Shown here: positions 17,364 to 35,855 of the stretch, in pieces
How the letters are laid out: each line of letters starts with the position of its first letter
Numbering within the stretch: the stretch's first letter is position 1
Assembly (NCBI GenBank): GCA_022565395.1
Contig: JAIUMV010000009.1
Span: forward strand, 1 to 64,000
DNA from: Marinobacter sp.
Lineage (GTDB): Bacteria; Pseudomonadota; Gammaproteobacteria; Pseudomonadales; Oleiphilaceae
Length of the DNA stretch: 64,000 bases
Reading direction: 5' to 3'
Translations under genes and position numbers: made by a program
Notes under the pieces: model-generated
What the model was told of the DNA's origin: nothing
The model's database searches: none
Seen by the model: the letters and a program-made list of their open reading frames with translations, nothing else

Positions 17364-17700
17364 TTCCCTCTCCCTTGAGAGGCCAAGTCGCAGTAAGGAA
17401 GGCCCCTGCGGGGCGCGCTAGCCACCCTCACCCCAACCCCCGCTCCGCGCCCCGGCCTGCCGCATAGCGGCAGTCGTTCAGGCAGATGAAGCTGTCGCTT
17501 CAAGGATTCTGCCTTCACCCCCTCAAGGGAGAGGGGCTTTATGTAGCGATACAACGCAACACGCTGCCAACCGGCACCGCGTTCTATTCCCTCTCCCTCG
17601 AGGGGAGAGGGCCAGGGTGAGGGTGAAACAAAATAGTGAAGCAACGCTTCACCAGCATTGCATTACAGGTCCCTCCCCCCTCAAGGGAGAGGGGCTTTCT
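17364..17700. repeat. Family B repeat array (copy 1)
   Basis: Nucleotide repeat built from short hairpins: CCCTCTCCCTCGAGGGGAGAGGG, GGCCCCTGCGGGGC, and GTGAAGCAACGCTTCAC, linked by CCACCCTCACCCCAACC and its complement. The same modules recur at 31014-31103, 33262-33690 and 35590-35642. This copy fills the gap between the SDR gene and the convergent AmpG-like gene. Its right end runs into the last codons of that permease gene. No coding sequence of its own is credible. Confidence 0.9.
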
Positions 17701-31015: not shown

Positions 31016-31103
31016 CACCCTCACCCTGGCCCCGCTCCGCGCCCCGGCCTGCCGCAAGGCGGCACGGTTTGGTTCCCTCTCCCTTGAGGGGAGAGGGAAC
31101 TCA
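31014..31103. repeat. Family B repeat (copy 2, short)
   Basis: CACCCTCACCCTGGCCCCGCTCCGCGCCCC...GCCGCAAGGCGGC...TTCCCTCTCCCTTGAGGGGAGAGGG, a partial unit directly after the flagellin 2 terminator. The same modules are found in copies 1, 3 and 4. Confidence 0.88.
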
Positions 31104-33261: not shown

Positions 33262-33690
33262 GTTCCCTCTCCCTTGAGGGGGTGTAGGCAGAGTCCTTGA
33301 AGCGCCAGCTTCATCTGCCGAAACGACTGCCGCCATGCGGCAGGCCGGGGCGCGGCGCGGGGCCAGGGTGAGGGTGAAACAAAACAGTGAAGCAACGCTT
33401 CACCAGCAGTGCGGTAAGGAAGGCCCCTGCGGGGCACGCCAGCCACCCTCACCCCAACCCCTCTCCCCTCAAGGGAGAGGGGCTTTATGTAGCGATACGA
33501 CGCAACACCCTGCCAACCTGCACAGTACAGTTCCCTCTCCCTTGAGGGGAGAGGGCTAGGGTGAGGGTGAAATAAAATAGTGAAGCAACGCTTCACCAGC
33601 ATTGCAGTATAGAAGGCCCCTCCGGGGCACACTAGCCACCCTCACCCCAACCCCTCTCCCCTCAAGGGAGAGGGGCTACACTGCGATACA
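33262..33690. repeat. Family B repeat array (copy 3, largest)
   Basis: At least three partial units in tandem. CCCTCTCCCTTGAGGG modules occur near 33266, 33534 and (as complement) 33467 and 33655. GTGAAGCAACGCTTCAC occurs near 33387 and 33581. GGCCCCTCCGGGGC and CACCCTCACCCCAACCCC linkers lie between them. A CTTGAAGCGCCAGCTTCATCTG variant segment is the reverse complement of part of copy 1. The array fills the 475-nt gap between the TPR gene and the DUF559 gene and ends 16 nt from the latter. Confidence 0.92.
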
Positions 33691-33705
33691 GGGCTTCACC
33701 GGCAG

Positions 33706-34032
33706 TTAAACCAAAGCCCGCAAAATCTCCTCCAACACAGCTTCCCGCTGCTGCAACACCTCATGATTCCAGAATCTCAGCACGCGATACCCCTCGGCCT
33801 CTAACCAAGCATCTCGCGCAGCATCCCTTACGCAACCATTATGCTGACCACCGTCAAGCTCCACTATCAGCCTGGCAGGCAGTGAGACAAAATCCACGAT
33901 GTAAGGCCCGATGGGATGCTGACGGCGAAACTTGGTGCCTTGAAAGCGCCGATCACGTAGCAGATACCAAAGCTTGTGTTCCGTGTCAGTCATCGTTTTT
34001 CTGAGATTTTTTGCGAACATCCATTGTTCCAT
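33706..34032 (-). CDS. DUF559 (Vsr-like) endonuclease-domain protein
   Basis: Small protein of 108 aa related to very-short-patch-repair and restriction endonuclease folds. The opening FAKNLRKTMTDTEHKLWYLLRDRRFQGTKFRRQHPIGPYIVDFVSLPARLIVELDGGQH contains the conserved acidic catalytic residues (FVD, ELDGGQH), followed by RDAWLEAEGYRVLRFWNHEVL. Nuclease activity is predicted from the fold only. The ATG follows the exonuclease I stop by about 20 nt on the same strand, so the two may be cotranscribed. Its 3' end abuts the family B array, an association worth testing. Confidence 0.88.
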   Translation of the reverse strand: MEQWMFAKNLRKTMTDTEHKLWYLLRDRRFQGTKFRRQHPIGPYIVDFVSLPARLIVELDGGQHNGCVRDAARDAWLEAEGYRVLRFWNHEVLQQREAVLEEILRALV

Positions 34033-34051: not shown

Positions 34052-35500
34052 CTAGAAGTAAGGGATCAACGACTCCCCGTACAAATGCAGGTCTTCGAGA
34101 ATACTGCGGTTCCGGTCTGTCAGGTTGGGATCGGCGGCCAGGCGTTGCAGGTCTTGGGCAAACGCCTCCAGAGATCGCCAGCCCCTGGGTGGCTGCATCA
34201 GGCGTTGCTGGCGAAACTGTTCCCAACGCTCCTGCTCTTCATCCTGGAGGGTTTCCGGGAAATTGCGGGCGCGGTAGCGGAACAGCATTTCCGGCAATCG
34301 GGGATCGTCGAACGGGGTGTGCTGGTGCTCCAGCAGACTCTCCACAGGCTGCGCAACAATGAAGTCCAGCTTCTTACGATCCCCCGGGGATAAAAAGCCC
34401 CCTGCATACAACTGTTCGTCAGGATCCGTGAGGTCACTGGCACGCTCCTGGTTGAAGGCTTGCTGAATGCGTTGGGGCAGGTCTGGGTCCTGTCTCAGCA
34501 GGCGCAGGTGCTCCCGCAACTGATCGCCGTCGAGTTGGAGCTGGTCCAGGCGCTCCGGGCTGAGGGTTTTCAGCATGGCCGCTGGCGCCAAAACCGGACA
34601 TTTATTCAGGTGTACCGCCTTAAGAGGAAAACGGGTCACACCCTCATCCAGCTCCGCTTTGGCAGTAAACACCCGTTCGCGGATTTCTTCGACACTGGCA
34701 CCCAGCAGCTCTGCCGGGTTTTCCCGCAAATCATAGACAATCACGGCATTACGATTGGTCGGGTGCTCCGTCAGTGGCGCCACCAGCGCGCAGCAACCCA
34801 TGCTTGCGGGATACATGGAGGAGATATGCAGTACCGGCTTGTGGGTCACGATATCCAGCAAGCCACGGGCGGCGTGCTTGTCCTTGTGCTGCAGCACGAA
34901 CTCATACAGCTTGGGCTGACGGTCGCGGATCAGCCGCGCCATGGCAATGGTCGCTTCCACGTCAGACATGGCATCGTGCGCCGCTTCATGGGTGATACCA
35001 TTCGCTTTGGTCAGGTCCTCCAGCCGGAAGCTGGGGCTGCCATCCTCTTTGCGGGGCCACTCAATGCCTTCCGGACGCAGCGCATAGGTCAGCCGCACCA
35101 TATCAATGATGTCCCACCGGGAATTGCCGTTCTGCCACTCACGGCCATAGGGATCCCGCAGGTTGCGATACAGGGTGTGGCGAGTCACTTCGTCATCGAA
35201 ACGGATGCTGTTGTAGCCCACCACACAAGTGCCCGGCACGCTGAAAGCGGCGTGAATCTGGCGGATAAATTCAGCCTCAGGGTAACCATCCGTCAGGGCT
35301 TTCTGGGGAGTAATGCCGGTAATCAGGCAGGCTTCTGGCGCAGGCAGGTAATCGTCGGCAGGTTTGCAGTAGATCACCAGAGGCTCTTCGATAATGTTCA
35401 GGTCTGCATCCGTACGCACGCCGGCAAACTGAGAAGGCCGGTCGTGGGTTGGGTCTGCGCCAAAGGTTTCGTAGTCGTGCCAATAGAAAGAGCGAATCAC
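34052..35500 (-). CDS. sbcB: Exodeoxyribonuclease I (SbcB)
   Basis: Processive 3'-5' single-strand DNA exonuclease of the DEDDh family, active in mismatch repair and recombination. The catalytic motif I is FYWHDYETFGADP at the N-terminus. Motif II is TCVVGYNSIRFDDEVTRHTLYRN and motif III is ITHEAAHDAMSDVEATIAMARLI. The C-terminal part carries the SH3-like and helical extension. Length is 482 aa, as in E. coli. The start is GTG at 35500 with AGGA upstream. The DUF559 gene follows about 20 nt downstream. Confidence 0.95.
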   Translation of the reverse strand: MIRSFYWHDYETFGADPTHDRPSQFAGVRTDADLNIIEEPLVIYCKPADDYLPAPEACLITGITPQKALTDGYPEAEFIRQIHAAFSVPGTCVVGYNSIRFDDEVTRHTLYRNLRDPYGREWQNGNSRWDIIDMVRLTYALRPEGIEWPRKEDGSPSFRLEDLTKANGITHEAAHDAMSDVEATIAMARLIRDRQPKLYEFVLQHKDKHAARGLLDIVTHKPVLHISSMYPASMGCCALVAPLTEHPTNRNAVIVYDLRENPAELLGASVEEIRERVFTAKAELDEGVTRFPLKAVHLNKCPVLAPAAMLKTLSPERLDQLQLDGDQLREHLRLLRQDPDLPQRIQQAFNQERASDLTDPDEQLYAGGFLSPGDRKKLDFIVAQPVESLLEHQHTPFDDPRLPEMLFRYRARNFPETLQDEEQERWEQFRQQRLMQPPRGWRSLEAFAQDLQRLAADPNLTDRNRSILEDLHLYGESLIPYF

Positions 35501-35855
35501 GGGCTGGGGTCCTGCGCCGGTTGAATGACCTGACGCAGTCTAACAGATCTTTTGTTAGGGCCTGAAGGGATACGGCGGCCCCTACGGGGCTCGTTAGCCA
35601 CCCTCACCCCAACCCCTCTTCCCTCAGGGGAGAGGGGCTTATAGTGGCTCAACATTCTGCCAAACAACATGGCACAGGTCCTTCCCCCTGGAAGCGCTTT
35701 ATCACCCCGCCGTGCGCCTCGCAGGAGCCCTGCTATACTCAAGGCCAATGGAGTCACGCAAGAACCCAAGGAGCCGCAAACCCAGAGGCCGGTGCAAATG
35801 ATACGGCACACTGTATGCCAGTTACCGCCTCGTATGTCAGAGAGCTACGCCCTGA
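35501..35855. other. Intergenic stretch with a family B fragment
   Basis: This 355-nt gap between the divergent sbcB and response-regulator genes holds a short family B fragment at 35590-35642 (CCACCCTCACCCCAACCCCTC...GGGGAGAGGGGC) and a TATACT box at 35733-35738 that may belong to the response-regulator promoter. No protein gene is credible. Confidence 0.7.
35590..35642. repeat. Family B repeat fragment (copy 4)
   Basis: GCTCGTTAGCCACCCTCACCCCAACC and CCTCTTCCCTCAGGGGAGAGGGGCTT, matching the right half of a family B unit. Confidence 0.85.

Follow-up and report, generated by a model that had tools for sequence, protein, structure and literature searches.

The window, i.e. the whole stretch of 64,000 nucleotides of Marinobacter sp. 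DNA that was analysed, contains a small DUF559 gene occupying the 3' gap of the exodeoxyribonuclease I gene sbcB, with an array of family B repeats next to it (Table 1). The initial annotation described this array as abutting the DUF559 gene, and this was confirmed, the array being located on the 3' side. The distance of 16 nt given there holds only if flanking unit sequence up to about position 33689 is counted; from the last exact hairpin to the DUF559 stop codon the distance is 30 nt. The other end of the gene starts 20 nt past the stop of exodeoxyribonuclease I. On this 5' side of the window gene no repeat was found, and the inverted-repeat score of 10.5 corresponded to background. The encoded protein matched PF04480 with 146.8 bits and thus passed the curated cut-off of 20.6.

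Table 1. Coordinates of the DUF559 gene, its neighbour and the family B repeats in the window
Feature	Position	Strand	Remarks
DUF559 gene, predicted Vsr-like PD-(D/E)XK nuclease	33706..34032	-	108 aa ORF; PF04480 E 2.6e-43
Family B (putative PIT/TM-type) repeat array	~33262..33682		3' side of DUF559 gene
Exact family B hairpins in array	33458-33482, 33533-33555, 33651-33675		
Complete, putatively non-autonomous family B unit	33533..33675		hairpin 33533-33555, tail to 33569, spacer, inverted tail from 33637, inverted hairpin 33651-33675
Family B hairpin, 10-bp stem	33458..33482		inverted tail 33444-33460
Array part	33262..33376		degenerate hairpin from 33265, left half CCCTCTCCCTTGAGGGG; tail 33360-33376 after inserted sequence
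Second family B array	17366..17693		
Lone family B tail and hairpin	31016..31097		
Lone family B copy, one mismatch	35599..35636		upstream of exodeoxyribonuclease I
Exodeoxyribonuclease I (sbcB)	34052..35500	-	NCBIfam NF008746 E 2.8e-207

The tails of the complete unit point inward, which is the layout of the ends that bracket DUF559 genes in other genomes. Family B was strongly overrepresented in the window: the core nonamer CCCTCTCCC occurred 16 times against 0.64 expected (none of 100 shuffles reached 16), and the tail pattern 9 times against 0.43 expected. In the 3.9-Mb genome as a whole, a tight 22-nt pattern was detected at 14 places forming 9 clusters. Because there are only 9 clusters, the chance that one lies within 300 nt of a given small gene is about 0.2% by our own arithmetic. 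Rfam did not match family B in the window; its sole match was a tRNA fragment, from a gene truncated by the window edge at positions 1-58 of the minus strand. A second, weak DUF559-like match (22.5 bits) was noted elsewhere in the same genome, inside a 202-aa open frame (L002, G000:C14:64198-64374), and the stretch fetched around it contained no family B core nonamers.

Each family B end consists of a hairpin, its 5' arm being pyrimidine and its 3' arm purine, a linker, which sometimes holds a second small hairpin, and a third, G-rich block that is the mirror image of the purine arm. For the mirror test, 226 of 300 sides possessed a qualifying hairpin and 195 of these were informative. The G-rich block fitted the mirrored purine arm at all G positions on 136 of the 195 sides and the direct arm on 66, while mirrored arms taken from another locus matched at a rate of 33%. 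After removal of ties, the mirrored arm was preferred over the direct one on 81 versus 7 sides and in 30 versus 2 distinct arm sequences (p 2.5e-7). As the mirrored arm prevails across differing arms, the geometry of an intrastrand triplex is preserved even though the letters differ, for example in the arm/block pairs AGGAGGGGG with GGGGGTGGT and GGGGGAAGG with GGGATGGGGG.

Given a hairpin followed by a G-rich block that mirrors its purine arm, we identify family B, judging from sequence layout and from the accessible part of the original description, as the PIT/TM intrastrand-triplex repeat of Holder et al. 2015 (PMC4666352). The pyrimidine arm, the purine arm and the potential third-strand block were all present, both in the window and across loci. 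Common to family B and to the repeat as described in that part of the paper are the succession of CCCTCTCCC, loop, GGGAGAGGG, three-base linker and GGGTGAGGG, the intergenic location and the frequent arrangement in inverted pairs. According to the same text (PMC4666352, in the part accessible), the motif occurs in more than 260 prokaryotes, with 23 copies in E. coli K-12, and has no known origin; a triplex was seen in vitro for a single strand and not stably in vivo, and the authors state that they did not find genetic-mobility activities around the E. coli sites. The accessible part of PMC4666352 reports neither a linked gene function nor a mobility gene, whereas the repeats analysed here bracket DUF559, and the mirror geometry that persists in diverged families goes beyond what is described there.

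One of the published copies is itself close to a DUF559 gene. In the copy list of PMC4666352, as far as accessible, copy no. 9 of E. coli K-12 spans 1,351,204-1,351,239, that is, 167 nt from the end of ycjD, which is annotated as a DUF559 protein in MG1655 (1,351,407-1,351,760, minus strand). A degenerate repeat copy overlaps the ycjD stop. The ycjD region was present in 3365 of 5426 E. coli genomes, and in two genomes lacking ycjD (L287 and L289) the stretch upstream of fabI contained no repeat of this kind. This is a strain-variable segment, where these two strains contain an RND efflux operon and other E. coli have sapF-ycjD.

We then considered how regularly DUF559 and the repeat occur together. 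In the family of the window, represented by 101 genomes that formed the identical set for both searches, a strong DUF559 gene was present in 11 genomes and the tight pattern lay within 60 nt of the match in 9 of them. The exceptions were G022, with diverged ends on both sides, and G024, without a tight copy. In G046 the only two pattern copies of the genome flank DUF559, and in G008 the gene is flanked by two identical variant copies arranged as inverted repeats. Altogether, the tight pattern was found in 10 of the 11 genomes with DUF559 versus 8 of the 90 others (Fisher p 2.3e-8). The reversed pattern could not serve as a control in this sample, as it matches the T variant of the pattern itself.

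A second set of loci, named loci hereafter, was picked by protein similarity alone and comprised the best 80 of at least 576. Around DUF559 in these best 80 of at least 576 loci, repeat density was 2.01 per kb within 150 nt, 0.38 per kb at 150-300 nt and 0.01 per kb beyond 1 kb. A pattern copy within 150 nt was present in 34 of the 80 (again the best of at least 576), and most of the pattern-free loci displayed a diverged hairpin and tail, usually inverted across the two sides. In a motif-free test, the upstream flank was aligned locally with the reverse-complemented downstream flank. Here, an inverted-end score of at least 28 was reached by 59 of 79 named loci (best 80 of at least 576, L092 being left unscored) versus 19 of 2270 shifted placements, and for the remaining ORFs of these loci only 5 of 722 flank pairs had inverted ends. 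Since the best 80 of at least 576 are the nearest relatives of the window, the test was repeated on an even sample of the class, in which 229 genomes were evenly drawn and DUF559 was detected in 54 (E <= 1e-15) at 75 places. The analysis covered 70 of these places, excluding that of the window itself, three short ones (G210, G264 and G128) and the second of two close places on G274:C305, and 68 of the 70 could be scored. A score of at least 24 was obtained at 46 of 68 class loci versus 6 of 1344 control placements, and of at least 28 at 39 of 68 versus 1 of 1344; the other 22 of 68 remained below 24. Inverted ends around the enzyme gene, a feature of autonomous elements, are thus frequent in both sets and absent at the window copy.

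Pyrimidine/purine hairpins gave a similar picture. At least one side carried such a hairpin in 72 of 80 named loci (best 80 of at least 576) and 64 of 70 class loci; both sides did so in 47 of 80 and 43 of 70, respectively. Among control windows, 41 of 1256 for the named and 74 of 559 for the class loci contained one. The ends match within a locus and differ between genomes, with the mirror geometry kept. In L012, L016, L019 and L288 (the ycjD end) there is an overlap between the repeat and the 3' end of the DUF559 gene, so that the protein terminates in translated repeat (PSPxPSP-type tails). The comparison of DUF559 occurrence near the repeat with expectation, as proposed in the initial annotation, was therefore strongly positive in the family, best-80 and class samples. 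The pairing of DUF559 with triplex-type repeats is widespread, and the adjacency in the window is one instance of it. As far as our searches show, it was previously unreported; a literature search, mostly without subscription journals, found no published link between DUF559 and PIT/TM repeats.

At the level of whole genomes, the exact pattern was present in 22 of 229 class genomes, namely in 14 of the 54 that carry DUF559 and in 8 of the remaining 175 (p 2.7e-5). The expectation that repeat-rich genomes always carry DUF559 held for all 6 genomes with at least 8 exact copies in this 229-genome class sample. The refuting observation named in the initial annotation, many genomes with the repeat but no DUF559 gene, was made only in part: repeats without DUF559 occurred in 8 of 18 repeat-positive family genomes (1-4 copies each), 8 of 22 repeat-positive class genomes (1-5 copies each) and some E. 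coli genomes, mostly at low copy number. Conversely, 40 of the 54 DUF559-bearing class genomes had no exact pattern copy, many of them having diverged ends. G265, for example, has 109 exact copies. DUF559 itself is distributed patchily, being detected in 12 of the 101 family genomes (E <= 1e-8) and in 54 of the 229 class genomes (E <= 1e-15), and in-frame stops were observed at 7 of 75 class places, which suggests turnover of the gene. For phages, only three records were obtained. Three records of the plasmid collection (NZ_CP141089.1, NZ_OL790696.1 and NZ_CP119142.1) were of whole-chromosome size (2.2-4.9 Mb).

The fold of the DUF559 protein was modelled from an alignment (pLDDT 87.9), replacing a poor single-sequence model (pLDDT 55.9). 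With this model, the best Foldseek match was NGO0050 of N. gonorrhoeae (3hrl, E 1.8e-10), followed by the catalytic domain of the homing endonuclease I-Bth0305I (3r3p, E 4.1e-5) and, more weakly, by Vsr (1vsr, E 0.011; 1cw0, E 0.079), with mitochondrial-ribosome chains ranking in between. Across 67 sequences, residues D47, E58, D60, Q63 and D70 were invariant, and H64 was almost invariant. DUF559 is thus predicted to adopt a Vsr-like PD-(D/E)XK fold with conserved acidic residues. Toxin B-subunit chains (E 0.18-0.42) were dismissed as chance matches, and a role in a defence system was rejected, PADLOC having given only a 12-bit match. NGO0050 belongs to the same family by sequence (E 3.7e-40) and by fold, and TM-like repeats lie downstream of its gene in L286; it differs in having a solved structure (PDB 3hrl), and our literature search found neither a function nor a repeat link for it. 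I-Bth0305I shares the predicted Vsr-like catalytic fold (PDB 3r3p) at 22% identity over the match, but is a named mobile-intron protein, whereas DUF559 genes are free-standing and repeat-flanked. Vsr has a related fold with a weak match and is not known to be associated with repeats.

Such a fold might also belong to a housekeeping or repair nuclease acting on hairpin or triplex DNA, in which case the flanking repeats would be autoregulatory and would have spread otherwise. Besides the predicted Vsr-like fold, this is in line with VsrA of Caulobacter, a DUF559-domain protein for which a role in mismatch or VSP-type repair has been proposed (PMC12907096, in the part accessible). We nevertheless regard it as highly improbable, as the patchy distribution, the in-frame stops and the whole-unit duplication described below resemble those of a mobile gene.

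The sites occupied by DUF559 were assigned by flank similarity. By this assignment, the gap between acnD and prpF, gene names which were confirmed in one locus, accounts for 17 of the 89 tree rows, these 17 belonging to several orders, and DUF559 rows are spread over at least 9 different sites. In relatives the acnD|prpF gap was empty, repeat-only or DUF559-bearing, with as little as 38 nt to the prpF motif, and in some of them it contained a family B hairpin on its own or palindromic repeats of other kinds. The 3' gap of sbcB behaved similarly. Rows of the sbcB site never formed one group in 200 bootstrap trees; as a single clade is compatible with the AU test (p 0.16), an independent arrival of DUF559 at this gap is not claimed.

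The occupancy of one gap in several orders would suit homing, i.e. a free-standing DUF559 nuclease cutting an empty intergenic allele and being copied in by homologous repair, so that the repeats would be borders or recognition marks and solo repeats would be scars of lost units. In its favour, a homing endonuclease (I-Bth0305I) is the nearest characterised fold according to the model, one gap is shared by several orders, and that gap is empty, repeat-only or occupied in relatives. However, the units occur at no fewer than nine different sites, and at three sites within one genome, the hundreds of repeats elsewhere (such as those of G265) need a separate explanation, and occupancy of the same site may be vertical or due to operon transfer. 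We therefore consider homing unlikely.

Both gaps also attract other sequences. Unrelated palindromic repeats gather together with family B in the acnD|prpF gap (L103, L106, L116, L122, L127, L128 and L129), and the same pattern was seen in the 3' gap of sbcB (L134, L137, L139, L151, L152 and L160); the unrelated palindromes of these gaps were of the GTCGGATTA...TAATCCGAC and GGGGTCAGA...TCTGACCCC types. In many species of Stenotrophomonas, the acnD|prpF gap contains a small reading frame (L237, L241, L243, L244, L247 and others), which we take to encode a ParD-like antitoxin.

This might indicate that DUF559 and family B merely hitchhike, both settling in a few permissive intergenic hotspots with no enzymatic link. 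General hotspots for small repeats are the best argument for it, joined by the ParD-like or other genes in the Stenotrophomonas gap. Yet the near lack of inverted ends around the remaining ORFs of the named loci (best 80 of at least 576), the matched ends that keep mirror geometry though they differ between genomes, and the association at many unrelated sites across the class make this reading quite improbable.

Copying of a whole unit was clear in one genome only, G132, where one DUF559 unit is present in three copies at three places (L174, L178 and L179). Two of the units are 98.3% identical over 534 bp without gaps, and the third, which has an in-frame stop near its start, is 89-91% identical to the other two. 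The 9-bp direct repeats flanking the units, as read from the flanks, are GTGCAGATT, GTTTGTAAC and GTTTTTAAC/GTTTGTAAC. The outer arms of the units are confined to the three DUF559 units (6 matches, two per unit), while the hairpin-tail occurs 16 times, in several instances as inverted pairs about 100-140 nt apart without DUF559. Some relatedness remains between the flanks of these units, which have short repeats (about 65-80 bp, 75-79% identity) in common because a further repeat contains or adjoins the unit. A palindromic repeat of the GGTCAAGGTTTGTAACC type was noted within or next to which the 534-bp units are placed.

Outer arms and 9-bp direct repeats are found in some insertion sequences, and those of G132 could belong to another vehicle. 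This opens the alternative that another transposase (RAYT/Y1 or a DDE insertion sequence) moves the repeats and that DUF559 is cargo, for which the G132 units are the supporting case. We regard it as the least probable of the readings considered, since the outer arms are restricted to these units, in contrast to the more numerous hairpin-tail, and since Y1_Tnp (PF01797) had no match in the 99%-complete window genome. A resident RAYT thus cannot maintain family B there and was ruled out as its mobiliser. Moreover, no conserved GTAG (or CGTC) tag was found beside the hairpins of the window, GTAG preceding one of them on one strand only.

Shorter units also vary in their presence. The gap between hrpB and mrcB of E. 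coli contains a full TM-spacer-TM pair in BL21, a single hairpin in an O111 strain, and no repeat in S87 and A4, where it is about 100 bp shorter. These filled, single and empty states represent either gain or loss of the repeat pair, and no direct repeat or target duplication was evident at the site. For the DUF559 unit itself, a clean empty site was found neither in Stenotrophomonas, where the acnD|prpF gap is too variable, nor in the two E. coli genomes without ycjD, where the efflux operon takes that place.

Among the closest known systems is that of REPs and REPINs with RAYTs, reportedly treated by Bertels and Rainey in 2011. REPtrons, as described in the accessible part of Di Nocera et al. 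2013 (PMC3733652), are short palindromic repeats in inverted pairs that flank a single small gene, and REPs also occur as orphans in genomes without a RAYT gene. Palindromic inverted pairs, a flanked small gene and orphan repeats are likewise found in the DUF559 system. The differences lie in the partner, predicted to be a PD-(D/E)XK nuclease and not a Y1/HUH transposase, in the triplex-type third block and in the lack of a conserved GTAG tag in the DUF559-linked repeats.

Family B is therefore probably a REP-like mobile repeat with DUF559 as its partner gene, and we propose the following model. Its basic end is the pyrimidine/purine hairpin followed by the G-rich third block in intrastrand-triplex geometry. 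In the presumed autonomous form, of about 0.45-0.55 kb, two inverted ends with their tails inward bracket the DUF559 gene, and in the presumed non-autonomous form a short spacer, as in the window array. The DUF559 protein would recognise the ends in their hairpin or triplex shape, upon extrusion or in the single-stranded state, and would nick or cut beside them. At the nick or cut, repair or fork restart might then lead to new copies of the unit in short intergenic gaps. As DUF559 lies beside or between repeat copies in many kinds of bacteria, it is a good candidate for the spreading enzyme. The suggestion of the initial annotation that the nuclease may spread family B has thus gained partial support. 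The analysis shows the genetic linkage, the anatomy of the inverted ends, the mirror relation kept in diverged sequences, the modelled fold with its conserved acidic residues, the duplication of a whole unit in one genome, and the filled and empty sites of a repeat pair, whereas it is inferred that the enzyme recognises and cuts the ends, by which route copies are made and that it catalyses the spread.

More tentatively, the DUF559 proteins (YcjD, NGO0050 and their kin) might represent a new class of minimal mobile element, in which one PD-(D/E)XK nuclease of about 110 residues, placed between triplex-forming inverted ends and recognising hairpin or triplex shape, would be the source of the PIT/TM repeats in hundreds of genomes. 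A partner nuclease would explain how PIT/TM repeats arise. If true, this would assign a role to a domain of unknown function with a solved structure. Beside the HUH-based REP-like system there would then be a second one, based on PD-(D/E)XK chemistry and possibly able to recognise DNA of triplex shape.
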